From IMG/VR virus record IMGVR_UViG_3300032046_000003, positions 114,281 to 178,280 of that record: DNA of 64,000 bases; one strand, written 5' to 3'. The notes under the pieces are model-generated. The model did no database searches. It saw only the letters and a list, made by a program, of their open reading frames with translations, and was not told the origin of the DNA. Origin of the DNA: a virus. The translations under genes and the position numbers were made by a program. Of this stretch, positions 827 to 54,548 are shown piece by piece. Numbering within the stretch: the first letter of the stretch is position 1; every line of letters starts with the position of its first letter.

Positions 827-2152
827 ATGAAACAAGAAAATACAAAATTGACCGAGCTGTTGATTAAGTTATTTGATAAAGATATTTATCAGGTCGGCGG
901 CGTAGTCAGAGACGAGATTCTAAACAGGCCTTGTAAGGACATGGATTTTCTCGTCATAAATCGTGATTATAATTCTATAGCTAATGATCTGTCTTATTAT
1001 GGTAAAACCTATTTGGTGGGCAAAAGCTTCGGTATAATAAAATTCAAGCCCAATGAAATGGATATAACAGTTGATATTGCAATTCCACGGACTGAAAAGA
1101 GCGTGGGGGTAGGACACCGGGATTTTGAGGTTAACACTAAAAACGTCAGTCTTCAGGACGATTTGGACAGGCGAGATTTTACCATGAATGCATTGGCAAA
1201 AAATTTATTGACAGGGAAGATAACAGATATAGTTGAAGGTCAAAGAGACATAGACAAAAAATTGATATGTGTGATAACGTCAAAGTCTTTTACAGAAGAC
1301 CCGCTTAGGATGATAAGAGCCTGCAGGTTCGCCTCACAATTGAATTTTCAAATAGGCTGGACCACGCAAAATCTTATAATTGAAAGCGCTGAGCTAATAA
1401 AGACAATAAGTGGAGAACGCATACAGGAAGAACTGAACAAAATTTTGGTGTCAGACAAACCCTCAATAGGATTAAGGTATTTATCAAAACTAGGATTAAT
1501 GATGTATATTGTGCCTGAAGTGGAACTTTTAAACGGCATAGAACAACCAAAAAAATATCATATGTATGATGCATTTATTCACACTATGGAAACCGTCGAT
1601 CAAATAAAAAATGACTTGACGCTAAGACTGACAGCTCTGTTGCACGATGTAGGGAAGGTAGACACCCAGACTATTGAGAATGGCGAGATACATTTTTATG
1701 AGCACGAAGACACAAGCGTTATGAGAGCGCGAGATGTTATGTTGAGGTTAAAATATCCTAATGATATATCCGATAGGGTCCTGTTGCTGATCAAGCATCA
1801 TTTGGTAGACTTGAACCTGTCAAGAAAAGGCATTAGGAAATTGATTGCGGCTGTAGGCGTTGATAATATATATGATTTACTAGAGCATAAGCGAGCTGAT
1901 AAATTAGCCTCACTGCCAGATAATGAACAGTTGGAAGATATAGAGACTCTTAAATTAAAAGTAGAAAAAGAAATAAAAAACGAAAGCGCCTTCTCTATCA
2001 AGGATTTAGACATATCAGGAGAAGACATTATGAAAATACTTAATATTCCCCCGGGGCCTAAAGTTGGCGAAGTACTTAAGTCACTGTTTGATAAGGTTAT
2101 GGATAATCCTGAACTCAACGAAAAAGAGACCTTAATTAAATTAGTAGTTTAA
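827..2152 (+). CDS. cca: CCA-adding tRNA nucleotidyltransferase with HD domain
   Basis: Polymerase-beta-fold nucleotidyltransferase that adds or repairs the 3' CCA of tRNA. The head domain shows GGVVRDEILNRPCKDMDFLV (G-G-x-V-R-D and the DxD metal site), then RRDFTMNALA and EDPLRMIRACRFASQL, the family signature. A C-terminal HD phosphohydrolase domain follows (LLHDVGK, then KHH), as in many bacterial Cca proteins. A TTG at 800 is in frame, but it lies inside the promoter; ATG 827 is at +1, so the mRNA is probably leaderless. The role fits this genome, because none of its tRNA genes encodes CCA. The length, 442 aa, is normal for the HD-containing type. Confidence 0.92.
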   Translation: MKQENTKLTELLIKLFDKDIYQVGGVVRDEILNRPCKDMDFLVINRDYNSIANDLSYYGKTYLVGKSFGIIKFKPNEMDITVDIAIPRTEKSVGVGHRDFEVNTKNVSLQDDLDRRDFTMNALAKNLLTGKITDIVEGQRDIDKKLICVITSKSFTEDPLRMIRACRFASQLNFQIGWTTQNLIIESAELIKTISGERIQEELNKILVSDKPSIGLRYLSKLGLMMYIVPEVELLNGIEQPKKYHMYDAFIHTMETVDQIKNDLTLRLTALLHDVGKVDTQTIENGEIHFYEHEDTSVMRARDVMLRLKYPNDISDRVLLLIKHHLVDLNLSRKGIRKLIAAVGVDNIYDLLEHKRADKLASLPDNEQLEDIETLKLKVEKEIKNESAFSIKDLDISGEDIMKILNIPPGPKVGEVLKSLFDKVMDNPELNEKETLIKLVV

Positions 2153-2176
2153 GTCTTCAAACAAGTGCATTATAAT
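2148..2176 (+). promoter_or_regulatory. Promoter, TTCAAG class (variant TTTAAG)
   Basis: TTTAAG at 2148-2153 overlaps the stop codon of cca. A 17-bp spacer ending in GTGCAT leads to TATAAT at 2171-2176. The GCAT before the -10 box is the mark of the second promoter class in this window. Confidence 0.7.
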
Positions 2177-2197
2177 AAGTATAAGGAGATGAATAAA

Positions 2198-2425
2198 ATG
2201 ACAGAACATGAAAAAGCATTGAGAAGAAATTTGATAGAAGATATGTATATTCAAATGCGAAGTGGATTAACTAAGGACATTAAACGAAATGCAGCAATCG
2301 GTATCATAGCAGAACTCAAAGGAATGGATTACGCTAGGAAACAAAAACAATATCAATTTGTTAACATCGCAGCCCGGCTATATAAGGAATATATAAAAGA
2401 ATTCGACGAGGCAAAAAATGATTGA
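2198..2425 (+). CDS. Small helical protein, unknown function
   Basis: 75 aa, starting at ATG 2198 behind AAGGAGATG. The in-frame ATG at 2165 lies inside the promoter and is rejected. The protein is highly charged and predicted helical (EHEKALRRNLIEDMYIQM, KEYIKEFDEAKND). I recognise no family. It overlaps the next gene by 8 bases and is the first gene of the transcription unit that starts at 2148. Confidence 0.7.
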   Translation: MTEHEKALRRNLIEDMYIQMRSGLTKDIKRNAAIGIIAELKGMDYARKQKQYQFVNIAARLYKEYIKEFDEAKND

Positions 2426-2690
2426 CATAGGATATTTTGGAAGAGCACATGAGAATGGGCATAGTGTTAAAAATAGTAAAGTTCATGCTATTTATAAAGG
2501 TAGGGTTTTATGTGGATATAAGCCCCATGAAACTATGAAATTTCAATGGTGTTCAACAGATGTAATGTTTAGCTATATTGAATGTCCTATTTGTAAAAAG
2601 AAAGCGGATAAAATTTGGGACATATTAAATCCCACAATAAAATCTGGGGGACAATCATTTTTAGAATTAGCCAAAAGGGGAATGATATAA
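2418..2690 (+). CDS. Small protein with a C-terminal CxxC pair
   Basis: 90 aa. A motif ECPICKKKADKIW near the C-terminus suggests half of a zinc site, with Cys-31 and Cys-45 as possible partners. No known family is recognised. The start ATG lies inside the end of the previous gene. A 70-base stretch follows before the next gene; an overlapping 52-codon frame from 2691 is probably not real. Confidence 0.65.
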   Translation: MIDIGYFGRAHENGHSVKNSKVHAIYKGRVLCGYKPHETMKFQWCSTDVMFSYIECPICKKKADKIWDILNPTIKSGGQSFLELAKRGMI

Positions 2691-2760
2691 ATGAATATTA
2701 TAGAACGATTTAAGAGATGGCATTTGAAATTAAAGAGAAAGAAAAGGGGGTTAAATAGAA

Positions 2761-2955
2761 ATGAGCGAAATAGAAACTGGGGAATTGAAAATATTGTGTC
2801 CGTTCTGCGAAGCTCCTTATACGGCCAAAATGAAAGAAGATTTACATGAAACAGAAGGTTGTGATACATGTGGTTATGGTGAAGAGATACGCGGAACAAT
2901 AACTATAACTTGCTCAAATTGTGGAAAAGTAGTTTATAAGAAAGAATATAATTGA
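2761..2955 (+). CDS. Small zinc-ribbon protein
   Basis: 64 aa with three CxxC knuckles: CPFC, CDTC and CSNC. This makes a double zinc-ribbon pattern typical of small phage proteins that bind nucleic acid or protein. The specific function is unknown. It has an AGGGGG ribosome site upstream. Confidence 0.75.
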   Translation: MSEIETGELKILCPFCEAPYTAKMKEDLHETEGCDTCGYGEEIRGTITITCSNCGKVVYKKEYN

Positions 2956-2966
2956 GGAGGTAAAAA

Positions 2967-3074
2967 GTGACATCAGAAACAATCATAAAAACAATCGTAT
3001 TAATTATTGGTGTTCCTTATTTTTTATGGTGGAATTGGAAAAAAATGGCAGAACACTGGAACGATAAGTGGTGA
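2967..3074 (+). CDS. 35-residue single-span membrane peptide
   Basis: It starts at GTG 2967, behind a strong GAGGAGGT at the right distance. The product is MTSETIIKTIVLIIGVPYFL followed by a short Trp- and Lys-rich tail, so one hydrophobic segment of about 16 residues. The function is unknown; small membrane peptides in phages can be inner-membrane modulators. The good ribosome site is the main evidence. Confidence 0.6.
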   Translation: MTSETIIKTIVLIIGVPYFLWWNWKKMAEHWNDKW

Positions 3075-3080
3075 AAATAA

Positions 3081-3353
3081 ATGTATAAATTAATGATAGC
3101 GAAAAACAAAGTGACCCAAAAATGTGAAGTTTGCCACAAGAAAATCAATAGAGGCAGAAAAATATATATTGTAGGCGAAATAATAGCTTGTAAAATGAGC
3201 AAATTAAAAGACATTTGGAATACATGGGGCAAATGTTGTTCAAAACTTTGTATAGATGATCTTGTATATTCAAAATATTATAAGGATAAGCCGATCGAAG
3301 ATTCAATAAATCAGTTCAAATCTTCCAATATATGCATTATAATATATACATAA
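3081..3353 (+). CDS. Small cysteine-rich protein
   Basis: 90 aa. CEVCHKKINRGRK near the N-terminus and a CC(S)KLC group further on could form a treble-clef-like zinc site, as in small MYM- or HNH-like zinc proteins. No catalytic residues are recognised. The ribosome site is weak (GGTGAAAATAA before ATG). The last codons overlap the next promoter. Confidence 0.6.
   Translation: MYKLMIAKNKVTQKCEVCHKKINRGRKIYIVGEIIACKMSKLKDIWNTWGKCCSKLCIDDLVYSKYYKDKPIEDSINQFKSSNICIIIYT
3315..3343 (+). promoter_or_regulatory. Promoter, TTCAAG class (variant TTCAAA)
   Basis: TTCAAA at 3315-3320, a 17-bp spacer ending ATGCAT, and TATAAT at 3338-3343. It lies within the end of the preceding coding region and serves the gene at 3376. 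Confidence 0.7.
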
Positions 3354-3685: not shown

Positions 3686-4465
3686 ATGGAAACAATGAAT
3701 ATGGAGAGTATTAAGTTGAAGGCCCCAGCGGTATTTGCAACGTCCCCGGTGAAAGAAGCTTCAGATAGGTATTATTTTATATCCACAAAAGAGATAATAG
3801 ACACATTAAAGACATTTGGCTGGCAGGTGACAAGCGCCCAGCAACAGGGAACACATAAACACAATGCTCATAGACAAAATTTTAAGAGGCATTTGTTAAG
3901 GTTCAGGAATCCCGAGATTGCAACCGGAGAAAACATACCAGAAATAGTTGTAATGAATTCACACGATCGAAGCACAAGATTCAAATTTTATGCGGGCATA
4001 TTTAGGACAGTGTGCATGAACGGCTTAATAATTGCCGAGACCAAAGTATCGGGGTTAAACAAAAAACACATTGGTCATATAGATATTGTTAATGAGTTTA
4101 TAGAGTCTACAATAGAGAAGACCACAGAGACGCTTTCAAAGATCAGAGAATATAAGAACACAAAACTTACTCAAGCTGAAAGGATAAGCATTGCCAGACA
4201 AGCCATAAGAATACACTGGTCACATTCAAGCTTTATTACGCCTGAACAAGTGCTGGAACCTCGCAGAGAGGAAGATAAGGGAACTGATTTATGGACCACC
4301 TTTAACGTTATTCAAGAGAACATAATGAAAGGCGGAATGAGCAAACAATTACATGATGGCAGAGTTCACACTACTAGAGAGGTAAAGAACGTTACCGAGA
4401 TAGTTGGATTTAATATCAAACTGTGGAAGCTGTTTAAATTTGATATACTCGATGAAAGTATATAA
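3686..4465 (+). CDS. DUF932 (phage/plasmid-like) protein
   Basis: 259 aa, behind AAGGAGGAG. The pattern of a central VVMNSHDRSTRFKFYAGIFR, then TVCMNGLI, and a C-terminal WTTFNVIQENIMKGG matches the DUF932 family found in phages and plasmids. The end of that motif (NVIQEN, then a GR-rich segment) is typical. The biochemical role of the family is not established. It is the last gene before the promoter at 4474. Confidence 0.75.
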   Translation: METMNMESIKLKAPAVFATSPVKEASDRYYFISTKEIIDTLKTFGWQVTSAQQQGTHKHNAHRQNFKRHLLRFRNPEIATGENIPEIVVMNSHDRSTRFKFYAGIFRTVCMNGLIIAETKVSGLNKKHIGHIDIVNEFIESTIEKTTETLSKIREYKNTKLTQAERISIARQAIRIHWSHSSFITPEQVLEPRREEDKGTDLWTTFNVIQENIMKGGMSKQLHDGRVHTTREVKNVTEIVGFNIKLWKLFKFDILDESI

Positions 4466-4473
4466 ATTAACTG

Positions 4474-4502
4474 TGTACATTTAAAGATCCAAATGTTATA
4501 AT
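4474..4502 (+). promoter_or_regulatory. Promoter, TTTACA class (variant TGTACA)
   Basis: TGTACA at 4474-4479, 17 bp, TG-T extension, TATAAT at 4497-4502. A leader of about 65 nt with an extra AGGAGGTG precedes the gene at 4577. An 8-codon frame (MSYCFSKV) in the leader is too short to judge. Confidence 0.75.
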
Positions 4503-4576
4503 ATATTTAGAGGAGGTGAAGATTATAAGAAATGAGTTATTGTTTTAGTAAAGTATAAAAAATAGGAGGAATTAAA

Positions 4577-5293
4577 ATGGTTGAAGAGATTAGACAGATA
4601 CGTAGTAGAAGGGTAACAGATCCTGTTGCAAAACAGAAAATAGTTTCAGATTATAAAGCGGGTAAAAAAATGAATCTTGATTATGCAATAGCGCTTAAAA
4701 CATCTGCATCTGAAATAAAAGCTATTTTGCAAGAAGAGGGCGTGTATAAGGCGCTACCCAATAGGCGGAATCCTTGGAATTTTGATAAAAATTGGGAAAT
4801 AATAAAGCAGGTATTAAAAAATGGTGCGACCAATAAGGAAATATGTGATAATTTTAGAATCACATTAAAAACTCTAACAAATAGATTAAGTAAGAAAAAA
4901 TATAAAGTTAGAAGAATTGTTAGGCCAGATGTTAGAGCAAAGGTTATTTCTCTTCATATCGCAGGTAAAAAGCCTAAAGATATAATTAGAAAAGTAGGAG
5001 CTAGCAGAATAAGCGTTTATAGTATTATAAGTGCTTATAAAAAGTCGATGCTTAGAAATGTACCAACAGCCTCTATTTCTAGACCAGCAGTTGCCTTATC
5101 TACTTTACCGGCACAAACTAATATAGAAGACGTCGCTAAACAAACTTCTAATATTGTTAAGGCAACCATGGAAATTATGACATTTCCAGAAGTTGTTGTT
5201 GAAAAAAGTGATGGTACAAAAATTACATATAAAAATGTTTCTCATGCACATTTAGTTAAAGCAGGTATAGTTGATATAACTAAATCACACTGA
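4577..5293 (+). CDS. Multi-helix-turn-helix DNA-binding protein
   Basis: 238 aa with three successive HTH-like repeats: about residues 15-50 (KIVSDYKAGKKMNLDYAIAL), 62-105 (IKQVLKNGATNKEICDNFRI) and 112-150 (KVISLHIAGKKPKDIIRKVG). A Pro/Ala linker and a C-terminal beta-like segment follow. Such resolvase- or Sigma-like HTH arrays occur in phage regulators and in small terminase subunits; I cannot choose between these. It is a single-gene transcription unit, with its own promoter and a terminator after it, which fits a regulator. Confidence 0.75.
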   Translation: MVEEIRQIRSRRVTDPVAKQKIVSDYKAGKKMNLDYAIALKTSASEIKAILQEEGVYKALPNRRNPWNFDKNWEIIKQVLKNGATNKEICDNFRITLKTLTNRLSKKKYKVRRIVRPDVRAKVISLHIAGKKPKDIIRKVGASRISVYSIISAYKKSMLRNVPTASISRPAVALSTLPAQTNIEDVAKQTSNIVKATMEIMTFPEVVVEKSDGTKITYKNVSHAHLVKAGIVDITKSH

Positions 5294-40555: not shown

Positions 40556-40756
40556 ATGAAAAAGCAAAAAATTAAGATTAAAGATTTGCCAGAAGATTTT
40601 GATATGATCGGGTGTAAGTTAAAAGGTAAATATATTTATAGCGGTTGGAATAAAGGGTTTTGGATGAAAAAGAAGATGAGCGATACTGAAATGTTTCCTT
40701 TGTTTTTTAAAAGTTTTGATGATATTAAGAATTGGGAGATAGAAATAATAAAATGA
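40556..40756 (+). CDS. Small basic protein, unknown function
   Basis: 66 aa. It starts KKQKIKIKDLPEDFDMIGCK and has a Trp-rich middle (YSGWNKGFWMKKKM). Stop overlaps the nrdD start as ATGA. Confidence 0.5.
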   Translation: MKKQKIKIKDLPEDFDMIGCKLKGKYIYSGWNKGFWMKKKMSDTEMFPLFFKSFDDIKNWEIEIIK

Positions 40757-42957
40757 CCAAGAAAAAAATTAAAGTAATAACAAAACAATCTAAAGCAGAT
40801 ACTACTGACAAATCACTTAATGTAGAATCTTTTTCTACTTATGAAATGATAACTGAGTGGGATAAATCTAGAGTCGCTGATAGTCTGCAAAAAGAAGCCG
40901 GAGTGACTGAAAAATTAGCAAAAGATATAGCAAACGCGGTAGAGAACAAATTATTAAAACTCGAGATTGAAAGCATTTCAACAGAATTCATCAGGTCTTT
41001 GGTTGATGAGGAATTGCTTATAAGGGGCGAAAAGAAAAAGCTCCAAAAACAAAAAGCATTAATTATACCCACTTATGATTTAGAGCAAGTATTGTTCGAT
41101 AAAACTAATGAGAATAGTAATGTTCAATCAAATAGTCCCGAGGCAGTAAACATGTTTATAGCCGAGTCTATATTAAAACAATATGCTCTTAACCGAGTAT
41201 TTTCTACTGAGGTCGCCAATTCACATCTGAACGGAGAAATACATCTACACGATTTAGGGTATATTGACAGGGTATACAGTCTAGACGGGTTAAATAGTAC
41301 CATAGAGATTAAAAGTGGCATAAATGGGCCATCTAGAAAAATTTGTATGAAAAATTTATATGATGTTATATGCGAAGAGGAATTATATGATCCAGAATTA
41401 GATGCACATATAAAATATCCCAAAGATTTATTTATTAGGGATAAAAATGAATGGGTGGAGCTAAAAAAAGTATTAAAACACAAAACAGATAAGAAAATTT
41501 TAAAAATAGACACAACAGAAGGGGATAGCCTATGGGTTACAGAAGATCATCCTTGCATAATTTTAGAAAATGAAATAGAGATTACAAAACAGGCAAAAGA
41601 TTTAAAAGAGAACGATATATTGTTAAAAATTATATTAATAAATGCGTCAGAAAGGTTAAAAGTGTTTATGCAACAAGTTAAAATAAAAAAAATACAAAAA
41701 GTAATTAATTCAAGCGATTTTGTTTATGACGTAACTACAAAATCAGGAACGTTTATATGCAATAACTTATTAATTCACAACTGTTCATCTCATTCATTAG
41801 AATACATAAAGAAATATGGATTAAGTTTGCAGAATCTGTCAACAAAATCGTCACCTGCGAAATATGCTTTAACGTTAACAGGTCATTTAAATACTTTCCT
41901 AGCTTCAATGCAGGCTTTTTATGCAGGAGCCCTAGGAATAAGCTACGTGAATATATTTTATGCTCCGTTTTTATTAGGAATGACTAAAAAAGAATTAAAG
42001 CAACAGGCTCAATACCTTATATTTTCATGTTCTCAAAATGCTTTTAGCAGGGGAGGGCAGACTTTATTTATAGACTTTAATATACATTTAGGAGTACCTA
42101 GCATATTAGCAGATGTTCCAACAATAGGTCAAAATGGTAAATATATTACTGAATTAATAATCGATGGTATGGAACCATCAGAACAAAGAAGAGAAAACAA
42201 GGAATTCAGAGAATCTTTATGGATATTGACTAAAGAAAGAGACGAATTGACGCATGAGAAAATATTACAATATTATGAGTTATTTCCGCTAGAATATGAA
42301 GGCAAGAAAATAATAGAATACATAAGACTTAGAGCTTATCATACAAGGCAATTAACATATAAAGATTTTGAGAAAAAATCTCAAGAATTTGCTCAAGCCT
42401 TAATGGAAGTATGGCACGAGGGCGATTCTAATCACGGAGTATTCCCATTTCCTAAATTTGACCTACATGTTAATGAAGAGTGCTTTACTGATGAAACTCA
42501 AAAAAAACTAATGGAATATGCCTGCGAGTTGTCGGCAGACAAAGGAATAACATATTTCTTCTTTGATAGGTCAGAGGCTCAATTGGCGCAATGCATTTCT
42601 GGTAATTCATTGATCAAGATTAATAATAAAAAAGTACAAATTGAAGATTTATTTGAAAAATTAAGTAAAAATGTCGAAAAAAGACAAGATGGCTCTGAAG
42701 TTATAAAAATTAAAAATATAAAAATTGATGATTTTGATATAAAAAATAACAAAAAAGAGAATGTAAATATGAATGCATTGATGAGAAAAAAATATAAAGG
42801 TAATATTATTAAAACAATGATTAATAATAAAGAATTAATTTGTACGCCCGATCATAAATTTACTGTTAAATGTAAAAAAAATAATGAGTTAATTGAAATA
42901 ACTGCAGAAAAATTATATGAAAATAAAGATTTATATTTAATCCCAATGGAGAATTAA
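40753..42957 (+). CDS. nrdD: Anaerobic ribonucleotide reductase NrdD, N-terminal part with one cis intein and an N-terminal half-intein
   Basis: From ATG 40753. Residues 1-175: an ATP-cone (SFSTYEMITEWDKSRVADSL) and the N-terminal NrdD part up to HLHDLGYIDRVY. Then a 168-residue cis intein (41278-41781). Next the central NrdD barrel (CSSHSLEYIKKYGL, FSRGGQTLFIDFNIHLGVP), ending FFDRSEAQLAQ. The last 121 residues are the N-half of a second, split intein beginning CISGN. The rest of NrdD is made from 43939 onward and must be joined in trans. Class III reductase makes dNTPs without oxygen, using a glycyl radical. Confidence 0.93.
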   Translation: MTKKKIKVITKQSKADTTDKSLNVESFSTYEMITEWDKSRVADSLQKEAGVTEKLAKDIANAVENKLLKLEIESISTEFIRSLVDEELLIRGEKKKLQKQKALIIPTYDLEQVLFDKTNENSNVQSNSPEAVNMFIAESILKQYALNRVFSTEVANSHLNGEIHLHDLGYIDRVYSLDGLNSTIEIKSGINGPSRKICMKNLYDVICEEELYDPELDAHIKYPKDLFIRDKNEWVELKKVLKHKTDKKILKIDTTEGDSLWVTEDHPCIILENEIEITKQAKDLKENDILLKIILINASERLKVFMQQVKIKKIQKVINSSDFVYDVTTKSGTFICNNLLIHNCSSHSLEYIKKYGLSLQNLSTKSSPAKYALTLTGHLNTFLASMQAFYAGALGISYVNIFYAPFLLGMTKKELKQQAQYLIFSCSQNAFSRGGQTLFIDFNIHLGVPSILADVPTIGQNGKYITELIIDGMEPSEQRRENKEFRESLWILTKERDELTHEKILQYYELFPLEYEGKKIIEYIRLRAYHTRQLTYKDFEKKSQEFAQALMEVWHEGDSNHGVFPFPKFDLHVNEECFTDETQKKLMEYACELSADKGITYFFFDRSEAQLAQCISGNSLIKINNKKVQIEDLFEKLSKNVEKRQDGSEVIKIKNIKIDDFDIKNNKKENVNMNALMRKKYKGNIIKTMINNKELICTPDHKFTVKCKKNNELIEITAEKLYENKDLYLIPMEN
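41278..41781 (+). mobile_element. Cis-splicing mini-intein in NrdD
   Basis: 168 residues, first residue Ser (SLDGLNSTIEI), last two His-Asn, followed by extein Cys (CSSHSLEYIKKYG). Block B is TEDHPCII (TxxH); blocks F and G are VYDVTTKSGTFICNNLLIHN. There is no endonuclease domain. Removing it rejoins IDRVY to CSSHSLEY, the normal NrdD sequence. The +1 cysteine appears to be the conserved NrdD active-site-region cysteine after HxHD. Confidence 0.9.
42592..42954 (+). mobile_element. N-terminal half of a split intein (NrdD)
   Basis: 121 residues starting CISGNSLIKINNKKVQIEDL, with block B CTPDHKFTV (TxxH). It ends with a stop codon at 42955. Its partner is the 38-residue C-half at 43939. The junction in the host protein is AQ / CCRLR. 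Confidence 0.9.
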
Positions 42958-42962
42958 TAAAA

Positions 42963-43934
42963 ATGTGTAAAAATATGATTAAAAATAAAAAAGGTAGACC
43001 TAAAATAGAAAGACAGTTTAAAACATGTAAATGTGGTAAAAATTTCGAATGTAGGATAACAGAAAATAGGAAATATTGTTCATTAATATGTTGGTATAAA
43101 TTTGGCGATAAAACTAAAGAAAATAATCCAGCATGGAAAGAAAGGGAAACTCACTATTGTCAATGTGGTTGTAATGAAATATTTGAAACAATAATAACAT
43201 CTAAAAGAAGATTTATTAATGGTCATCAAATGAGAGGCATAAAGCGTAGCGATGTAACAAGAGCAAAATTAAGGGAAGCGGCTAAAGGAAGATTTACTTT
43301 AAAATGGTATATAGAAAGATATGGAGAAAATGAAGGTGAAAGGAAATACATAGAACGCAATAAAAAGACAGTTTCTAACAATTTAGAGGCATTAACAGTT
43401 AAATATGGGAAAGTTGTTGCTAAAGAAAAATTTGATAATTATCTCAAAAAATGGAAAAGACAATACATTGAAGAATTTTGGATTGAAAAATTTGGCGAAA
43501 AGATTGGTAAAGAAAAATATATTAAGAGAATGAATAAGCTTTTTCCCAATTGTTCATCAAAGATCTCTCAAGAATTATTTTTTAAATTATACAATAAATT
43601 AAATTTATCTAAATACAAATATGTTTATTTTGACAAATTAAATCATGAATTCTCATGTGGAACTAGATATAATTTTGATTTCGTAATAAATGATATTAAA
43701 AAGATAATTGAATTTAACGGTGATAAATTTCATGCTAATCCTTCTATTTATAAAGCTGAAGACGTTTCTAATCCATTTGAAAAATTAACAGCTAAAGAAA
43801 TTTGGGAAAATGATAGTATCAAAATAAATAAAGTTTTAAATAAGGGATATAAAGTACTTGTTATTTGGGAAAGTGATTATTATAAAAATAAAGAAAAAAC
43901 TTTTAAAAAATGTAAAGAATTTTTAGAGGAGTAA
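42963..43934 (+). CDS. Free-standing homing endonuclease between split-intein halves (Vsr/EDxHD-like)
   Basis: 323 aa. N-terminal zinc fingers (CKCGKNFEC, CSLICW; CQCGCNEIF), a middle of repeated helical segments (WYIERYGENEGERKYIERNK, IEKFGEKIGKEKYIKR), and the C-terminal nuclease: YNFDFVINDIKKIIEFNGDK, FHANP, then IWENDSIKINKVLNKGYKVL and VIWESDYY. This matches the endonuclease family known from fractured, split-intein genes, whose core resembles Vsr mismatch endonuclease. It ends with AGAGGAG, the ribosome site for the next fragment. Confidence 0.88.
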   Translation: MCKNMIKNKKGRPKIERQFKTCKCGKNFECRITENRKYCSLICWYKFGDKTKENNPAWKERETHYCQCGCNEIFETIITSKRRFINGHQMRGIKRSDVTRAKLREAAKGRFTLKWYIERYGENEGERKYIERNKKTVSNNLEALTVKYGKVVAKEKFDNYLKKWKRQYIEEFWIEKFGEKIGKEKYIKRMNKLFPNCSSKISQELFFKLYNKLNLSKYKYVYFDKLNHEFSCGTRYNFDFVINDIKKIIEFNGDKFHANPSIYKAEDVSNPFEKLTAKEIWENDSIKINKVLNKGYKVLVIWESDYYKNKEKTFKKCKEFLEE

Positions 43935-43938
43935 AAAA

Positions 43939-44052
43939 ATGAAATTTCGTGAAATAGATGATATAAAAATAGAAAAATATGATGGATATGTTTATGATTT
44001 AGAAACAGAAAAATATAATCATTATGCTGCAAATGATTTTATAATACATAAT
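43939..44052 (+). mobile_element. C-terminal half of the split intein (NrdD)
   Basis: 38 residues: YDGYVYDLETEKYNHYAAND (block F) then FIIHN and extein Cys (block G). Has its own ATG and ribosome site. Confidence 0.9.
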
Positions 44053-44895
44053 TGCTGTCGTCTTCGAGAAACTATAACAGATATGACTATGGTTAAAAAT
44101 CCTGAAAGTTTGAGATTTTGTGGGTTCCAAAACGTGACTATTAATCTTCCGCAAGCTGCTTATAGGGGTAAGGGTGATTTTAATAAAACTGTAGATGAAA
44201 TAATCTGGGCAATGAAAATAGCTATGAAAGCCCATCTGCAGAAAAAGAAGTTTATACAAAGTTTAATGGACGATGAAAATAAACCTCTTTGGCAAGTAGG
44301 AAAACCATCTGAAGACGGAAAACCATATATCGACTTAGAAAAGTCAACATATATTATAGGAATGCTAGGATTAAATGAGTGCGTTCAAAGAATAATGGGA
44401 AAACAGTTGCATGAATCGGATGATGCGTTGAATATGGGTATAAAAATAGTCGCTCATATGTATTCCGAATGTAAAGAATTTGCCAAAGAATATAAATTAA
44501 AAGTCGTATTAGAAGAATCTCCTGCAGAAAGTGCGGCAGCTAGATTGGCTAAAATAGACTTGAATAAATTTCCAGAGGCTAAAAAGTATATTAAAGGCAA
44601 TAAAGATAACGGAGATGTATATTATACGAATTCTACTCATTTTACCGCAGATGCAGATATTGATATATTAGACAGGATAGACAAACAATCTAAATTCAAT
44701 CAACTTATAGAGGCAGGAGCCATAACGCATGTTTTCTTAGGAGAGCAAAGGCCCACAAAAGAAGCAGTATTTAATTTGGTAGAAAAGACATGGAGAAATA
44801 CTCAATCAGCTCAATTAACGTTAAGTCCTGAATTGATAATATGTCATGATTGCGGAAGGGTGACCAGAGGCTTTTCTCAAGTTGAAGATGAATAG
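43939..44895 (+). CDS. nrdD: C-half-intein plus C-terminal part of NrdD, lacking the glycyl-radical domain
   Basis: 318 aa. Residues 1-38 are the intein C-half ending AANDFIIHN; the NrdD extein starts at CCRLRETITDMT. It includes NLPQAAYRGKGDF, IGMLGLNECVQ, YYTNSTHFTADADIDILDRI and HVFLGEQRPTKEA, all NrdD. It ends after CHDCGRVTRGFSQVEDE, where NrdD proteins would go on to a second CxxC and the RVxGY glycyl-radical loop. Those parts are encoded separately at 45324. Confidence 0.92.
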   Translation: MKFREIDDIKIEKYDGYVYDLETEKYNHYAANDFIIHNCCRLRETITDMTMVKNPESLRFCGFQNVTINLPQAAYRGKGDFNKTVDEIIWAMKIAMKAHLQKKKFIQSLMDDENKPLWQVGKPSEDGKPYIDLEKSTYIIGMLGLNECVQRIMGKQLHESDDALNMGIKIVAHMYSECKEFAKEYKLKVVLEESPAESAAARLAKIDLNKFPEAKKYIKGNKDNGDVYYTNSTHFTADADIDILDRIDKQSKFNQLIEAGAITHVFLGEQRPTKEAVFNLVEKTWRNTQSAQLTLSPELIICHDCGRVTRGFSQVEDE

Positions 44896-46234: not shown

Positions 46235-46594
46235 ATGGATATAAGAGGCTGGCATAAAGTGAGCTTACTGGATTATCCAGACAAGGTAAGCACATTAATT
46301 TTCACTTATGGATGCAATAGAAGGTGTCCATATTGTGTGTCAAACGACACTAAAATAACTTTAAAAAATGGTAAAACAAAAAGAGCCGATTTAATTAATG
46401 TGGGAGATATTTTAAAAACACCTTTCGGAAAAACCAAAGTTACGACTTATATAGAAGACATAAAAGAACTTTATGAGATTAAATTTAAAGGTGGTAAAAA
46501 AATTAAAGTAGGCAAAAATCATTTATTTATGAGTGAAAAGAATTTAAAAAAAGTAAAGAATTTAAAAATAGGGGATATAATTTATGGTGTGTAA
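46235..46594 (+). CDS. nrdG: NrdG activase, first 33 residues, plus N-half of a split intein
   Basis: 119 aa. Residues 1-33 are the N-terminus of an anaerobic reductase activating protein (WHKVSLLDYPDKVSTLIFTY, then GCNRRCPY). Cys-34 begins the intein half, CVSNDTKITLKNGKTKRADL. So only two of the three radical-SAM cysteines are in this extein. The third comes from the C-extein after splicing. NrdG uses S-adenosylmethionine and a 4Fe-4S cluster to make the NrdD glycyl radical. Confidence 0.9.
   Translation: MDIRGWHKVSLLDYPDKVSTLIFTYGCNRRCPYCVSNDTKITLKNGKTKRADLINVGDILKTPFGKTKVTTYIEDIKELYEIKFKGGKKIKVGKNHLFMSEKNLKKVKNLKIGDIIYGV
46334..46591 (+). mobile_element. N-terminal half of a split intein (NrdG)
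   Basis: 86 residues from CVSNDTKIT to GDIIYGV; block B is VGKNHLFM (GxxH). A different intein from that in NrdD. The next gene starts inside its last codons. Confidence 0.85.
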
Positions 46595-47372
46595 TTTAAA
46601 TAATAGCTTAAGAATGAAATTAAACAATCCAATGAAAAATAAATTAATTGTTAAAAAAGTTATGAACACTAAAAAAATAAATCATGTTTATGAAAAAATG
46701 GCTAAGAATGCCATAGGAAAAAAAATGTTAAAAGAATCAATTTTAAAAAGACAGAAAACTTATTATAAGAACAATCAGCATATTAAATCTTCTAATAGAA
46801 TGAAGATTAATAATCCAATGTTCAGAGTTAATATTAAACAAAAGATGAAAAATACATTTAAAAATAAAACTTTCAAAGAAAGAGAAATTATTAATAATAA
46901 GATTTTAGAAACCAAAAATAAAACTGGATGCTATAAAAATATGTCCAAAAATATGAAAAAAAATAATCCTATGTTTAATGAAAATACAGTTAAAAAGATG
47001 GTCAAAACTATGTATGAGCTTTGGCCAAATAAAAAAAGTGGATTAGAAAAAAAATATGAGAAAATATTTTATATATTAGATAAAAAAATTGAATTTGTAG
47101 GTAATGGTTCAGTTTGGATTAAAAGACAAAACCCTGATTTTATATTGAGAAGTAAAAAGAAAGTTATTGAAATGACTTCACATTGGTTTTATAGAACTAA
47201 AAATAATTATGCCATTAATAGAATAAAAAAATATAATGAATGTAATTGGAATTGTCTAGTCATTTTCATAGATAAGGATAAATTTAATGATAGCTTAAGA
47301 TTACAAATACTAGATTATTTAAAACATGATTATTCAGGGGTAATAGAATATGGCAAACTTGAAAAAATATAA
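46584..47372 (+). CDS. Free-standing endonuclease between NrdG intein halves
   Basis: 262 aa, very Lys/Asn-rich. NUMOD3-like repeats with NPM cores (MKLNNPMKNK, MKINNPMFRVNIKQKMKNTF, MKKNNPMFNENTVKKMVKTM). C-terminal nuclease: SGLEKKYEKIFYILDKKIEF, then KRQNPDFILRSKKKVIEMTS-HWFY and CLVIFIDKDK. The PDFI...KVIEM centre resembles the same Vsr-like or PD-(D/E)xK family as other endonucleases here. It overlaps the intein N-half gene by 11 bases and the C-half gene by 23. Confidence 0.82.
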   Translation: MVCNLNNSLRMKLNNPMKNKLIVKKVMNTKKINHVYEKMAKNAIGKKMLKESILKRQKTYYKNNQHIKSSNRMKINNPMFRVNIKQKMKNTFKNKTFKEREIINNKILETKNKTGCYKNMSKNMKKNNPMFNENTVKKMVKTMYELWPNKKSGLEKKYEKIFYILDKKIEFVGNGSVWIKRQNPDFILRSKKKVIEMTSHWFYRTKNNYAINRIKKYNECNWNCLVIFIDKDKFNDSLRLQILDYLKHDYSGVIEYGKLEKI

Positions 47373-48054
47373 AATTTTGAGTATAAAAAAAATAGGATAT
47401 GACAAAGTTATAGATTTTTCATGTGAACCAATACCATATTATATATCTAATAATATGATTTCGCATAATTGTCATAATCCAAAATTAGTCTTAGTGAGAA
47501 ACAAATGGAAATTGACTGAAAGAATAAAAGAAGACAAAATCATAAATTTCATTAAGAGTAAAAACAAGACTAAAAAATGGGTGGATGCTATTTCCATATG
47601 TGGCGGTGAGCCTACGACCCAATGGAGTTTGATCAAGTTCTGCGAGAAGATAAAAAAAGAATTAGGAATACTTATTAAGGTTGATACAAATGGAACTAAC
47701 CCCAGAATGCTCAGAAAATTAATAAGTAGGAAATTGGTTGATTACGTGGCAATGGATGTTAAAGTGGATTTATTCAATAGGCGGAACTATAATCTCAGCA
47801 TCAAGCTAGTAAAGAAGATGAAAAATTATGAATTTCGTTTGACAGCGGTTCCAACATTGGTTAAAGACGACAATATAGAACAAATAGCAGAAAAGTTCAA
47901 AGGAGCCAAGAGGTTCTATATTCAGCAGTTCAACAACAAGGTTAATATGCTGAATAACAAATATAAGGATATAAAGCCTTATAAGCGGGCGACATTGGAA
48001 GAATGGTGCAAGAAAATCAAGAAAAATTTTGATAGATGCGAGGTGCGCGCGTAA
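47350..48054 (+). CDS. nrdG: C-half-intein plus main body of NrdG
   Basis: 234 aa. Residues 1-40 are the intein C-half (KVIDFSCEPIPYYISNNMIS then HN, 47350-47469). The extein begins CHNPKLVLVRNKW, giving the third cysteine of CxxxCxxC when joined to the N-extein (CNRRCPY+CHNP). AISICGGEPTTQWSLIKFC (GGEPT SAM site) and KVDTNGTNP follow. Combined exteins make 227 aa, the size of an NrdG2-type activase. Neither half alone could bind the cluster. Confidence 0.92.
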   Translation: MANLKKYKILSIKKIGYDKVIDFSCEPIPYYISNNMISHNCHNPKLVLVRNKWKLTERIKEDKIINFIKSKNKTKKWVDAISICGGEPTTQWSLIKFCEKIKKELGILIKVDTNGTNPRMLRKLISRKLVDYVAMDVKVDLFNRRNYNLSIKLVKKMKNYEFRLTAVPTLVKDDNIEQIAEKFKGAKRFYIQQFNNKVNMLNNKYKDIKPYKRATLEEWCKKIKKNFDRCEVRA

Positions 48055-49599: not shown

Positions 49600-49821
49600 A
49601 TGGCAGAAATTACATTCCATCGTCTTGGTGGAGATGTGTCTAAGTTGAACATAACAGAGGAAATATCTGTTAAGGATGCGTTAGACAGGGCAGGTGTAAA
49701 GTATCAAACCGGTGATGACATCAGAATCCAAGGCAAATCTGTGGGGCTTGATACGAAGATTACCCCTGATCAAGCGCAGTTTGTCACAGCAGTCCCGAAA
49801 GTCAAAGGGGGTATTCACTAA
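49600..49821 (+). CDS. Ubiquitin-like (beta-grasp) modifier candidate
   Basis: 73 aa behind GGGGGGTG. AEITFHRLGGDVSKLNITEE, then VSVKDAL-type EISVKDALDRAGV, then DDIRIQGKSVGLDTKI and FVTAVPKVKGGIH. The strand-strand-helix-strand order fits a MoaD/ThiS/ubiquitin fold. The C-terminus is Gly70-Gly71 followed by Ile-His, so the diglycine would be exposed by removing two residues. The next three genes are E2-like, JAB and E1-like, which makes a modifier role likely. Confidence 0.78.
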   Translation: MAEITFHRLGGDVSKLNITEEISVKDALDRAGVKYQTGDDIRIQGKSVGLDTKITPDQAQFVTAVPKVKGGIH

Positions 49822-49836
49822 AATTTTAGTGTGATA

Positions 49837-49906
49837 GGGATTAAGGACGGTGAGTCCGCCGATAAAAATTGGGAGCATTGGACATCTTTACCAAAACCTT
49901 AGTTCC
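49837..49906 (+). ncRNA. Cloverleaf-like structured element between Ubl and E2 genes
   Basis: GGGATTAAGG (49837-49846) pairs with CCTTAGTTCC (49897-49906) over 10 positions including two G-T pairs. Inside are GGAC/GTCC or CGG/CCG, CCGA/TTGG and TTGG/CCAA short stems. The outline recalls a tRNA of 70 nt but there is no TTC T-loop or clear anticodon loop. It may adjust expression of E2 relative to the modifier, or be a dead tRNA. Confidence 0.45.
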
Positions 49907-49923
49907 GTGTAAAGGAGAAAAAA

Positions 49924-50571
49924 ATGGCTAAAGTAGATGATAAAATAGAAGACAAGAAATTTAAAGAAGAGCAAGAAAGCTATATTCAGACATGTCAAAC
50001 TAGGCATGACCATAGAATAAAGACTTGCGATGACAAAGAAAAGCAAATAAGCAAGGAAATAGAGCAGACCAGTAAGCAATTAATGTTGTATGTTAGAGCG
50101 TTAAATGATATACAAATCGAGTCAAACGACCTGAAAAACAACAAAGAGAAGAGCATAGAAAAATATAGAGAGGAATTCAAGGCGCTCAAGTCTATGAAAA
50201 ATTACAAAAATATTCAAGTTTCATTTAGCAACAACAGACCGGCGCTGGTAGGCTTTACTAATATGATATATATACAAGATAAAAATCAGTGGTACAAAAT
50301 AGGTAAGTTTAAAGTTGTTATTCAAGATGGTACTATTAATATCGATAATTTGACAAGTAAAAAAGAGGGGTATAATCATCCACATGTTCAAGGAAACGGC
50401 ACTCCGTGCCTCGGAGACTTACAATCAAGTTTGCCCAAGTTAATGGGCAATCACGAATATGCGCTCGTGTTTGACATCATACACAAATATTTATGTAGCT
50501 ACAATGAAAGAAGTCCGTATAAAAAAGTAGAGGCCTGGGAGAGAGTAAGCAAGCCAGGGGATGACGCATAA
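49924..50571 (+). CDS. E2-like (UBC-fold) conjugating protein
   Basis: 215 aa behind AAAGGAG. Residues 1-90 are a charged coiled coil (KQISKEIEQTSKQLMLYVRA). The C-terminal part has IYIQDKNQWYKIGKFKVVIQ, then YNHPHVQGNGTPCLGDL: the HPHV ... CLGD arrangement of prokaryotic E2-like proteins, with Cys162 as predicted catalytic residue and the His-Pro of the UBC fold. It would accept the activated modifier from the E1-like enzyme and pass it to a target. The order E2-JAB-E1 also resembles proteins B, A and ThiF of the PRTRC plasmid system. Confidence 0.82.
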   Translation: MAKVDDKIEDKKFKEEQESYIQTCQTRHDHRIKTCDDKEKQISKEIEQTSKQLMLYVRALNDIQIESNDLKNNKEKSIEKYREEFKALKSMKNYKNIQVSFSNNRPALVGFTNMIYIQDKNQWYKIGKFKVVIQDGTINIDNLTSKKEGYNHPHVQGNGTPCLGDLQSSLPKLMGNHEYALVFDIIHKYLCSYNERSPYKKVEAWERVSKPGDDA

Positions 50572-51075
50572 ATGTTAAAATCCAAAATATTTTTAACACC
50601 AGAAACATTCAAGAAAATAAGATTTTTTACCGATCTGGCTGAAGGTGAGGTATCAGGTCTAGGTAAGGCAGAGCGATCGGGTAATGATTTTATTATTACA
50701 GATGTCTATTGTCTTAAACAATATAACACAGGGGCATCAACTGAATTAGACAGTGAAGACATTGCAAAATTACTGTGTAGACTGTATGAGAAGAAAGAAG
50801 ATGTTAGCCTGTTGAAATTCTGGTGGCACTCTCATGCTAATTTTGGTGCATTTTGGAGTGGAACTGATACTCATACTATTAGTGAATTTGCAGCCAGCAA
50901 CAGCTATTTAATATCGCTCGTAACAAATAAAAACGGCGACATATTGGCCAGATTAGACATATTTAATCCAATTGAATGCACTTTTGATAATGTAGAATTG
51001 GACGTAATGATAGATGCGAAAGATGCTGCATTAAAAGAAGAGTGCCAGAAAGAATTGGAGCATATTAATGAGTGA
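50572..51075 (+). CDS. JAB/JAMM metalloprotease (deubiquitinase-like)
   Basis: 167 aa. Glu26 in EGEVSGLGKAER and the exact JAMM motif H-x-H-x7-S-x2-D in WWHSHANFGAFWSGTDT (His86, His88, Ser96, Asp99). This zinc isopeptidase could trim the modifier after Gly-Gly and remove it from targets. It begins on the base after the E2-like stop, so the two are translationally coupled. Confidence 0.92.
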   Translation: MLKSKIFLTPETFKKIRFFTDLAEGEVSGLGKAERSGNDFIITDVYCLKQYNTGASTELDSEDIAKLLCRLYEKKEDVSLLKFWWHSHANFGAFWSGTDTHTISEFAASNSYLISLVTNKNGDILARLDIFNPIECTFDNVELDVMIDAKDAALKEECQKELEHINE

Positions 51076-51721
51076 ACAAAAATATTGGAGACAGTTAGAT
51101 ATAGTTAATAATGATAAGTTAAGCATTCCTATAACTATAATAGGTGCAGGGGCCGTCGGTTCATTTGTGTGTTTGACATTAGCAAAAATGGGATGCACTG
51201 ATATAACAGTATATGATGATGACGACATAGACACTCACAATATTTCTAATCAATTTTACAGAGAACAAGATTGCGGTAATTCAAAAGTTGAAAGTTTGAA
51301 GGCAATAATAAAAGAGTTCGATAATATAGATATTAAGATTGTTTCAAAAAAATACAAAAATCAATCTCTTGAAGGCATAATTATATCTGCTGTTGACAGT
51401 ATGAACGTAAGAAACGATATATGGAAGAATATCAAATATAATCCCTCCATAAAATTATTCATAGATGGCAGAATGGGCGCCGAAGTTATGAGAATATACA
51501 CAGTAAAGCCTCATGATAAGGACGAGATAAAGTTCTTTGAAAAATATTTATATACTGAAAAAGAAGCAGAGGAATTAAAATGCACCGAGAAGAGCATAAT
51601 ATATAATGTTGCTGTTGTCAGCGGATTAATAACTAATCAAGTTAAGAAATATTGTATGGAGCAAGAATATAACAAAGAATTGATTTTTGATTTAAAGAAC
51701 TTGTTGTTTATAAAGAATTAG
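51068..51721 (+). CDS. E1-like (ThiF/MoeB/HesA) activating enzyme
   Basis: 217 aa. ITIIGAGAVGSFVCLTLAKM (nucleotide loop), VYDDDDIDTHNISNQFYRE (acidic and N-x-x-x-Q-F motif), then GNSKVESLKAI and SAVDSMNVRND. This is the minimal ThiF-type adenylyltransferase. It would adenylate the modifier's C-terminus and transfer it to the E2-like protein. A catalytic Cys cannot be fixed; CTEKS near residue 175 is a candidate. No zinc CxxC pairs are seen. Confidence 0.92.
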   Translation: MSEQKYWRQLDIVNNDKLSIPITIIGAGAVGSFVCLTLAKMGCTDITVYDDDDIDTHNISNQFYREQDCGNSKVESLKAIIKEFDNIDIKIVSKKYKNQSLEGIIISAVDSMNVRNDIWKNIKYNPSIKLFIDGRMGAEVMRIYTVKPHDKDEIKFFEKYLYTEKEAEELKCTEKSIIYNVAVVSGLITNQVKKYCMEQEYNKELIFDLKNLLFIKN

Positions 51722-51750
51722 TTCAAATGAGAAGAAAAATGCATAATAAT
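51722..51750 (+). promoter_or_regulatory. Possible degenerate promoter, TTCAAG class
   Basis: AG-TTCAAA at 51722-51727, 17 bp ending ATGCAT, AATAAT at 51745-51750. It keeps the class context but the -10 box is one base off TATAAT. If active it would separate clpC from the modifier genes. Confidence 0.4.
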
Positions 51751-52032
51751 ACTGATGTGAACATAATAGACTATACATTGTCCAGGGAACTGGACAAGAT
51801 TAAAAGGAAGCGTCGATCAGCTGAAAGAGATTTAGCAGATATTAAATCCAGATATGAATTAGCTTCGGTTGAAGTTGAATATTATAATCATTGTGAAAAA
51901 GAAATTCTTGAGAAGTTAGATAGTAAATACATAAAAAAAATGAGCGAGCCTGAATTCGAAAGAGTCAGAAGAGCCAAATATAATAGTTCGGTCAAATATA
52001 GACGTAATGGAATTACGGAGGAAAGTATATGA
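51727..52032 (+). CDS. Charged coiled-coil protein before clpC
   Basis: 101 aa. Basic and acidic helix ([40 protein letters not shown]). Alternative ATG at 51739. Overlaps the clpC start by four bases. It could be an adaptor for the unfoldase, but this is only position-based. Confidence 0.5.
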
Positions 52033-54548
52033 TATGTGAAGATTGCCGTCAAAATGAAGCGACATTTGAAGCCATATTTAATATAAATGGCGCCAGGCGC
52101 GTTAAAAATATATGTGATGTATGCTATAACAAATATCAACTAAGCAACGACGAACAAGTTAAAGAAATTTATAACAAATTAAGCGACGCCACCAAGAAGT
52201 CTATTTATTATGCAAGGAGAGAGGCTAAGAACAGAAGGCATAAATATGTCACCGAATACCATTTATTATACGGAATCGTTCTCGAGCAAGGCAGCACATA
52301 TAACACTTTAATAAGCATCGGCGTGAATATTGATAGTTTAAAACAAAAAATAGATTGGGCTTTAACTGCTGTTGCTGATTTAGTTGATAGGGGTAGTCAA
52401 GTTGAACCACTTTTATCAGTTGAAGTAGCCAATACATTAAAAGCCAGTGTCAATATAATAAATAAAATAGAGTTTCCAGAAGTGGAGCCTGAACATATTC
52501 TAATAGCAATCTTGGAACAAAGAGACAGCGAATTGTGTAGAGTGCTGAAACAGCAATTTGGATTAGACATAATTAAGATATTGGAGGAAATAGAGGCTCA
52601 ATTACCCGGCGATATTGACCTAGTTAGAAAATATAAAGAAAATGATTCTAAGAAAACAGCATTAGAAAAGTACAGCAGGAATCTGACTAAAATGGCCAAA
52701 GCCGATGAACTCGATCCTTGTATAGGTAGAACCTTAGAAATAGAGAGAATGATACACATATTGTCTAGAAGGACCAAGAACAACCCTGTGCTGGTCGGAG
52801 AAGCCGGTGTTGGTAAAACTGCAATAGTAGAGGGATTGGCAAGAAAAATAGTTGAAGGTGATGTACCTGAAAACATATTAAATAAGCAAGTCTTAGCGCT
52901 GGACTTAAACTCGATGGTGGCGGGAACTAGGTTTAGAGGAGAGTTTGAAGAGAGAATAAAGGCTGTTCTCGATGAGGTAAAATCTCGCTCAAGAGAGGTT
53001 ATTCTTTTCATAGACGAATTGCATACGTTGATAGGCGCAGGTTCGGCTCAAGGAAGCATGGACGCCGCCAATATATTGAAACCCATGTTGGCGAGAGGGG
53101 AATTACAATGTATAGGAGCAACAACTCGAGAAGAATACAGCCAACATATAGAAAATGACAAGGCGCTAGAAAGAAGATTCCAACTTATTGACGTTTCAGA
53201 ACCTACGGTAGACGAGGCAAAAGAAATCTTAAAAGGCGTAAAATATAGATATGATAATTTTCACAATGTGAATATAAGCAACGAGGCTATTGACGCGGCC
53301 GTTGAAATGTCAACTAAATTCATAGCCAACAGATTCTTGCCGGATAAAGCAATAGATTTGATGGACGAGGCCAGTGCTAAGGTAAAATTAAGCAAGTTGG
53401 AATTACCAGAAGACATTAAATCCCTTAAAAAGCAAATAGCGCTAGATAAGAAAAATAAAAAAGATACTGTAAAAGAAGAAAAACTGCTTAATCAGAAACT
53501 CGAAAAAAGAACAGAGGACAATAGCAAAATAGTTCTAAATGTCGAGAAAAACGACATAGCGCAAGTGGTTAGCAGATGGACTAAAATACCCGCAACTGAA
53601 CTATTGAAGGAAGAGAAAACTAAACTATTGCATTTAGAAGATAAGCTGCACGAGAAAATCATAGGTCAAGACCAGGCAATAAAGGCGCTTTGCAATTCGA
53701 TACGAAGATCGAGAGTCGGTATAAACGACCACAACAAGCCAATAGGCTCTTTCATATTTGCCGGTAAGACCGGAGTGGGTAAAACTTTAGTGGCCAAAAC
53801 ACTAGCCGAATATCTATTTGATTCTCCCGAGCACTTTATAAAAATTGACATGTCAGAGTATCAAGAAAAACATACAGTTTCTAGACTAATAGGAGCGCCT
53901 CCAGGATATATTGGATTTGAGCAAGGCGGGCAATTAATAGAACACTTAAGAAGGCACCCTTATTCAGTTATATTGTTAGATGAAATTGAAAAAGCTCATC
54001 CAGACATATTTAACGTATTATTGCAAGTGACTGAAGACGGGGTAATAACTGATGGCAGAGGAAGAAAAGCCGATTGTAGGAATTCCATCATAATAATGAC
54101 TTCAAACATAGGGGCGTTAAAAAAGGACATTATAGGGTTTAATGCAAAGATCGAAACTAAAGACGAATATGAGAGGCTTAGAACAGCTACAGAGAATGCC
54201 ATGAAGGAGTTTTTTAAGCCTGAATTCTTGAACAGGATAGACGACGTCATAGTATTCCACAATCTGGAAGAGGACGACATGTATAAGATAGTAGAATTGA
54301 TGATAAACGACTTGTCTGCAAGAATGAAAAAGCAAGAGCTCAATATAAAGATAGACCAAGACGTCAAGAAGTTGTTGGTGGAATCTGGATTTGACAAAGA
54401 ATATGGCGCTAGAAGTTTGAAGAAATTCATAGTTCGCAGGATAGAAAATCCATTGGCTGAAGAGATGCTTAAGGACAAATTTAAGCCTAATGACACTATA
54501 TTAATTACTAAAGAAAAGAAAGAAATAATTTTTGAAGTAGAAAAATGA
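52029..54548 (+). CDS. clpC: ClpC-type AAA+ unfoldase with N-terminal McsA-like zinc finger
   Basis: 839 aa. Residues 1-36: [20 protein letters not shown] then CDVCYNK, a zinc finger of the kind at the start of McsA. Then a Clp N-domain, D1 ([17 protein letters not shown]), a short ClpC-type middle region, and D2 ([25 protein letters not shown]). DIIGFNAK contains the IGF loop by which Clp ATPases dock ClpP, so it may feed host ClpP. No clpP is in the window. It lies just after the E1-like gene. Confidence 0.92.

Follow-up and report, generated by a model that had tools for sequence, protein, structure and literature searches.

Does a phage carry its own machinery for attaching a ubiquitin-like modifier (Ubl) to proteins and, if so, to what end? 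The question is raised by four consecutive genes in the DNA analysed here, a window of 64,000 nucleotides that corresponds to positions 114281-178280 of G000, a 178,280-base IMG/VR virus record. A preliminary description had read these genes as a cassette of Ubl, E2, JAB and E1. This core reading is borne out by homology at the profile level, by conserved motifs, by a model of the Ubl with a beta-grasp fold and by the conserved co-occurrence of the genes in many phages, and we consider it probable that they form a phage-encoded, reversible Ubl conjugation pathway, possibly cooperating in this lineage with a ClpC-like unfoldase.

The cassette in its source genome

G000 is a contractile-tailed phage (terminase, tail sheath at 2.3e-72, baseplate wedge, DnaE, DnaB and primase) with a G+C content of about 35% and 21 tRNA genes, in which the Ubl, E2, JAB and E1 genes are each found in a single copy. 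Their open reading frames run consecutively on the plus strand from 49600 to 51721, at the coordinates and in the order first proposed (Table 1), and the E1 and JAB genes overlap by 8 bases.

Table 1. Features of the cassette and of the region downstream, in window coordinates.
Feature	Position	Strand	Description
Ubl modifier	49600..49821	+	73 aa, beta-grasp (predicted), C-terminus KVKGGIH (di-Gly plus two residues)
Ubl-E2 spacer	49822..49923	+	102 bases, moderately stable predicted RNA fold
E2-like conjugating enzyme	49924..50571	+	215 aa, N-terminal coiled coil, then UBC-like core
JAB/JAMM isopeptidase	50572..51075	+	167 aa; E26, H86, H88, S96, D99
E1-like activating enzyme	51068..51721	+	217 aa, single ThiF adenylation domain, invariant C172, Rossmann GAGAVGS
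Small coiled-coil-like ORF	51727..52032	+	101 aa, between E1 and Clp
ClpC-like double-AAA+ unfoldase	52029..54548	+	839 aa, N-terminal CxxC...CxxC zinc finger, Clp_N repeats, IGF loop

The predicted fold of the spacer has a z-score of -1.9, 9 of 200 shuffled sequences being equally stable; no match to the spacer was found in Rfam, and its fold perhaps sets the ratio of Ubl to enzyme. The G+C content of the Ubl gene is 44%, compared with 30-37% in its neighbours.

Relatives of the cassette and assignment of its proteins

When searched alone, only the E1 could be placed securely (Pfam ThiF, 2.7e-20, above the cut-off). The single JAB sequence reached Prok-JAB at 0.0015, under the cut-off, and the lone Ubl and E2 sequences gave no family match and no relatives in single-sequence searches; with the E1 sequence by itself, no relatives were found among viral contigs. 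A plasmid search gave no E1 match. By searching with the ClpC-like neighbour, we found a sister phage, L012 (IMGVR_UViG_3300018080_004265), with a block composed of a HAD phosphatase, Ubl, E2, JAB, E1, two small ORFs and Clp. The identities to the window are 60% for the Ubl, 50% for the E2, 51% for the JAB, 65% for the E1 and 67-68% for Clp; the genes past Clp are not conserved between the two phages, and some farther upstream genes are. The E1 tree pairs the window with L012 as sisters (support 1.0) and groups the E1s of crAss-like and Flavobacterium phages in one clade (0.98).

The comparison with L012 also bears on other genes. The 101-residue ORF has a possible weak relative at the equivalent L012 site (BLASTP E 0.015 over 21 residues), with an alignment score that was reached by 5 of 2000 shuffles. 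An intein-like insert appears to split a QueE-like radical SAM gene of the window (46235-48054), the L012 homologue (4067-4747) being intact, and an anaerobic ribonucleotide reductase-like gene (40732-44895) is seemingly interrupted by an intein or homing element; its C-terminal part starts past an HN-C type junction, and the L012 counterpart (983-3196) is one ORF. L012 further contains a second ThiF/MoeB-like gene, preceded by one for a small protein with the C-terminus PPARKG (L012:13945-16655). G000 encodes a homologue of this small protein, 41% identical, at its opposite end (G000:C1:254-466), where no second ThiF was found.

The E2 alignment of the window and L012 was still insufficient to find E2 relatives. 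With the equivalent two-sequence E1 profile, nine loci in viruses and one in a MAG were found; an eleven-sequence E1 profile gave 364 relatives, and 80 of these were retained. The resulting census of 82 loci was selected solely by E1, and the other genes were found by HMMs; the loci are distinct contigs without redundancy clustering, and at least 12 of them have little upstream sequence. A JAB was found in 77 loci, a Ubl in 69, an E2 in 66 and all four genes in 63. The gene order Ubl-E2-JAB-E1 is observed in 51 of the 82, with E1-Ubl-E2-JAB and Ubl-E2-E1-JAB as variants (four loci each). This recurrence, together with the invariant catalytic residues of the relatives, confirms that the cassette is far beyond chance. 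It also overturns the earlier view that a complete set is unusual in a phage, since the cassette is common in phages, the crAss-like ones included.

Among named phages, crAss001, cr126, Dulem virus 41 and FpV4 have ThiF and JAB (“metalloprotease”) genes plus two more genes in matching order; crAss-like and Flavobacterium phages carry an E1 and a JAB of the cassette type, with E2-like and Ubl-like genes adjoining. The link of these phages to the window family is firm for the E1 and the JAB (JAB profile, 1.5e-14) and weak for the E2, where it covers the active-site stretch only; no profile link between the crAss Ubl and the window Ubl family was detected. The crAss E2 and Ubl are therefore assigned by their motifs and position. 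A Ubl that ends in GG (2.5e-5), an E2 (5.5e-12) and an E1 (1e-33) are also encoded by large Xanthomonas phages (227-229 kb), with no JAB adjoining these three genes.

The family profiles place the four proteins with differing firmness. That of the E1 matches ThiF (3.1e-14) and UBA1 (2.8e-13), in agreement with the ThiF/E1-like enzyme of the preliminary description. C172 and the nucleotide-site residues are unchanged in 11 of 11 alignment rows; C172 is taken as the catalytic cysteine by position, without an assay. In the JAB, the exact JAMM motif noticed earlier, HxH-x7-S-x2-D, is indeed present as H86-S-H88-x7-S96-x2-D99. These four residues and E26 are unchanged in all 10 alignment rows, and the motif is intact in 76 of the 77 JABs of the E1-selected loci. 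The top match of the JAB family profile is Rpn11 (1.3e-9), and the Rpn11 of C. subterraneum is matched at 7e-8; the JAB alignment was too diverse for use in scanning.

Judging from its sequence and predicted structure, the 73-residue protein is a beta-grasp Ubl with a C-terminal glycine, in line with the beta-grasp-like protein ending GG-IH of the preliminary description: the ORF, the profile match to SAMP2 (5.4e-6; also to MoaD and TtuB) and the AlphaFold model agree. The model has a pLDDT of 81 and a strand-strand-helix-strands order. In Foldseek it matched ubiquitin, SUMO and NEDD8 with a probability of 1.00 and SAMP1 with a TM of 0.71, no E-value being below 0.001. Family members match Pfam ThiS, the best at 1.3e-7. 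The window Ubl ends VKGG-IH and that of L012 in a bare VRGG; GG with 0-4 trailing residues is found in 44 of 70 family hits, GA, AG or GN in about one quarter, and several hits have neither.

The E2 is the weakest link of the cassette assignment. The HPHV...CLGD stretch recognised at first reading is present as H152-P-H-V...C162-L-G-D, that is, HPH-x7-CLG; a cysteine at the catalytic position is kept in 71 of 71 E2 hits, most of them with HPH or HPN shortly upstream. A 66-sequence profile matched UBE2L3 (5.3e-4) and then mainly other E2s, in an alignment that spans helix 1 to the active-site cysteine, and 5 of the 66 members weakly matched Pfam UQ_con (best 0.0035). The AlphaFold model (pLDDT 89) was built from a shallow alignment of 11 sequences and includes the long coiled coil. 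A Foldseek search of the PDB gave no useful match; in BFVD, the best was an unnamed 474-residue protein (1.6e-3), and a phage protein labelled “type II CBASS E2” scored 0.2. The check on the UBC fold thus gave UBC enzymes with the deep profile and no significant UBC match with the 11-sequence model; we regard a UBC fold, inferred from sequence, as likely and not proven.

Some relatives have more elaborate sets of E2-like genes. In G004, a single E1 is accompanied by a pair of neighbouring E2-like genes and by a third candidate about 8 kb off (L017:5759-7295, L026:2515-3441), and apparently degenerate second E2-like genes lie near the cassette at L020:3483-4463 and L015:4900-5655. Other E2-like proteins have C-terminal cysteine-rich, zinc-finger-like extensions (L024:5904-7316, L108:4247-6925, L021:281-1450), possibly built-in E3 or substrate-binding parts.

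Proposed protein conjugation and the neighbouring unfoldase

In the pathway that we propose, the JAB would trim the Ubl after its di-glycine (GG-IH in the window), the single-domain E1 would adenylate the exposed glycine, and the Ubl would pass via C172 of the E1 to C162 of the E2, which would join it to target proteins at lysine residues. The JAB could also strip the Ubl from its targets, making the modification reversible. The chemistry, the order of the steps and the isopeptide conjugates are inferred; even so, we hold with good confidence that the cassette performs protein conjugation, of which no conjugates have been shown.

The same components might instead serve as a sulfur-carrier pathway, in which the E1 thiocarboxylates a ThiS/MoaD-like Ubl that supplies sulfur for tRNA or nucleotide modification. 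The Ubl is nearest to SAMP2, MoaD, TtuB and ThiS, and the E1 is of the minimal ThiF type. Archaeal SAMPs and Urm1 take part in both protein conjugation and sulfur carriage. However, the JAB is Rpn11-like, the cassette shows neither a rhodanese nor a sulfurtransferase, and it includes an E2 of its own whose active-site cysteine is invariant, a feature that argues for protein conjugation over pure sulfur carriage; we regard a sulfur-carrier role as very improbable.

If proteins are conjugated, the genes around the cassettes of the relatives may indicate which. These cassettes lie in replication and recombination blocks, with primase and UDG in crAss001, SbcD and SbcC in L016, SbcC in L020 and, in Xanthomonas phage PhiXhv-12, DNA ligase and topoisomerase. 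Adjacent genes include ParB-like (4) and SSB (3) genes, SbcC, primase, DnaB and a clamp loader. Such neighbours would fit a SUMO-like, non-degradative tagging, in which phage or host replication and recombination proteins are reversibly modified to switch complexes while the genome is replicated. The nearby Clp would then be there by coincidence; a Clp is missing from most cassette phages, including complete crAss genomes. However, replication genes are also found at least 5.5 kb away, so that only ParB and SSB look enriched, with small counts, and the window cassette itself is flanked by the HAD phosphatase and ClpC, not by replication genes. We retain SUMO-like tagging as a possibility, and only tentatively.

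Another possible role is anti-defence, in which the phage pathway would disable the host Bil, CBASS type II and Bub systems by tagging, by JAB deconjugation or by E1/E2 decoys. Bacterial Ubl operons act in defence against phage (Bil, PMC11354881; CBASS, PMC10097602), and the PADLOC E1-E2 and JAB models include relatives of the phage E1 and JAB. The cassette sits, however, in replication blocks and not in recognisable anti-defence islands. Nor is the machinery simply a decoy, given that 69 of the 82 loci retain a cognate Ubl. In our judgement, an anti-defence role is quite unlikely.

A degradative role was suggested by the gene at 52029-54548. The preliminary description was right that no CD-NTase lies among the scanned neighbours and overlooked this ClpC-like AAA+ unfoldase, which adjoins the cassette in both the window and L012. 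Its similarity to ClpC (7.5e-212) runs from residue 48 onward and includes two AAA+ modules and a (V/I/L)GF loop, IIGFNAK aligning to YVGFNVQ of B. subtilis ClpC, with IGF in place of VGF. In ClpC and ClpE, this loop is the ClpP-binding loop. C3, C6, C29 and C32 of the zinc finger are invariant between the window and L012, and we take this four-cysteine finger to resemble that of ClpE and McsA. The unfoldase could pass tagged proteins to host ClpP; no ClpP was found in G000, and no proteasome subunits in 18 related records.

Other unfoldases are few. A search of 28 virus records with AAA_2 (PF07724) gave three matches over the cut-off, in G000, G001 and G002, each lying no more than 9 kb from the E1. 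L017, a distant relative, has a different, VCP/Mpa-like AAA+ protein 4.5 kb ahead of its E1; a ClpB-type fragment 8 kb off in L015 was rejected as support for degradation, being without the ClpP loop. Three phages have Ycf46-like AAA+ ATPases, named so by the N-terminal pattern of the family, at a distance of 4-7 kb from the cassette (L041:17260-18867, L066:14486-16123, L087:5866-7308). A ClpC- or VCP-type unfoldase is close by in only 3 of 82 loci, and the window and L012 count as one event because they are sisters that also share upstream synteny. No Clp was found in crAss genomes, complete ones included, or in most other cassette phages, and the proximity argument was made post hoc, with the data already seen. 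For these reasons, coupling to Clp is a lineage-specific possibility. That the cassette is coupled to the adjacent unfoldase is an inference, as is the binding of ClpP, and we find such coupling somewhat doubtful; a full ubiquitin-proteasome-like logic, in which a phage ClpC-like (elsewhere VCP/Mpa-like) unfoldase would read the tag via its zinc finger or N-domain and feed host ClpP or remodel the target, appears unlikely.

Whatever its targets, protein tagging appears to be a common and largely unstudied phage strategy, because the same kit is found in dozens of other phages. A literature search, with most subscription papers and preprints outside its coverage, gave no account of this phage cassette, which is widespread in phages and, as far as the searched papers show, has not been described as a class. 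In crAss-like phages of the human gut, the ThiF and “metalloprotease” genes have been annotated merely one by one. If the pathway works, Ubl conjugation would be a common phage tool and not a matter of bacterial defence alone. The minimal four-gene cascade with its Rpn11-like protease lends itself to studying how conjugation came to be linked to AAA+ unfolding, and crAss001, DAC15, the Fpv phages and Xanthomonas PhiXhv-12 offer culturable, testable models.

Comparison with known systems

The Caldiarchaeum subterraneum operon, like the phage cassette, comprises Ub, E1, E2 and an Rpn11-like JAMM protease, and the archaeal CsRpn11 cuts its Ub precursor exactly after GG (PMC6043591). The window cassette differs in having no visible RING E3, in its SAMP2/ThiS-like Ubl and in being phage-borne. 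Lambda-type tail assembly genes likewise provide a phage-encoded Ub-like domain (TAPI) and a JAB (TAPK) (PMC1779556), but they have no E1 or E2, their JAB is fused to NlpC/P60 and their context is tail assembly; an identity with them was considered and rejected.

Bil (BilABCD, ISG15-like) has the same four functions, and its JAB trims a Ubl precursor (PMC11354881). However, BilA has two Ubl domains whereas the 73-residue phage Ubl has one, BilD combines inactive and active adenylation domains with a Cys domain whereas the phage E1 is one domain of 217 residues, and BilB has its cysteine followed downstream by E/H/H (CEHH, PMC11354881) whereas the phage E2 has HPH upstream. The CEHH spacing is absent after C162 of the window E2, and Bil is a host defence while the present cassette is found in phages. 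Membership in Bil was rejected on the single-domain Ubl and E1 and the lack of CEHH.

PRTRC, or class 6d of Iyer 2006, resembles the phage cassette in its separate Ubl, JAB, E1 and E2 genes and in the ParB-like genes near some phage cassettes, none of which was seen among the scanned neighbours in the window. The class 6d E2 is without an upstream histidine and has one after the cysteine (PMC1779556), unlike the phage E2. Membership was rejected on this HPH, on the score of the phage E1 against PRTRC_ThiF TIGR03736 (38.3 bits, cut-off 144.75) and on Prok_Ub PF14454, with no match in G000 at E up to 10. CBASS type II (Cap2/Cap3; Iyer class 6b) shares E1, E2 and JAB activities, but its E2 and E1 are fused in Cap2, whereas in the phage they are separate genes accompanied by a dedicated Ubl; on that separation, and with no nucleotidyltransferase among the scanned neighbours of the window cassette, it was rejected as well. 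The best reading is that, by the defining features of these systems, the phage cassette lies outside Bil, CBASS and PRTRC.
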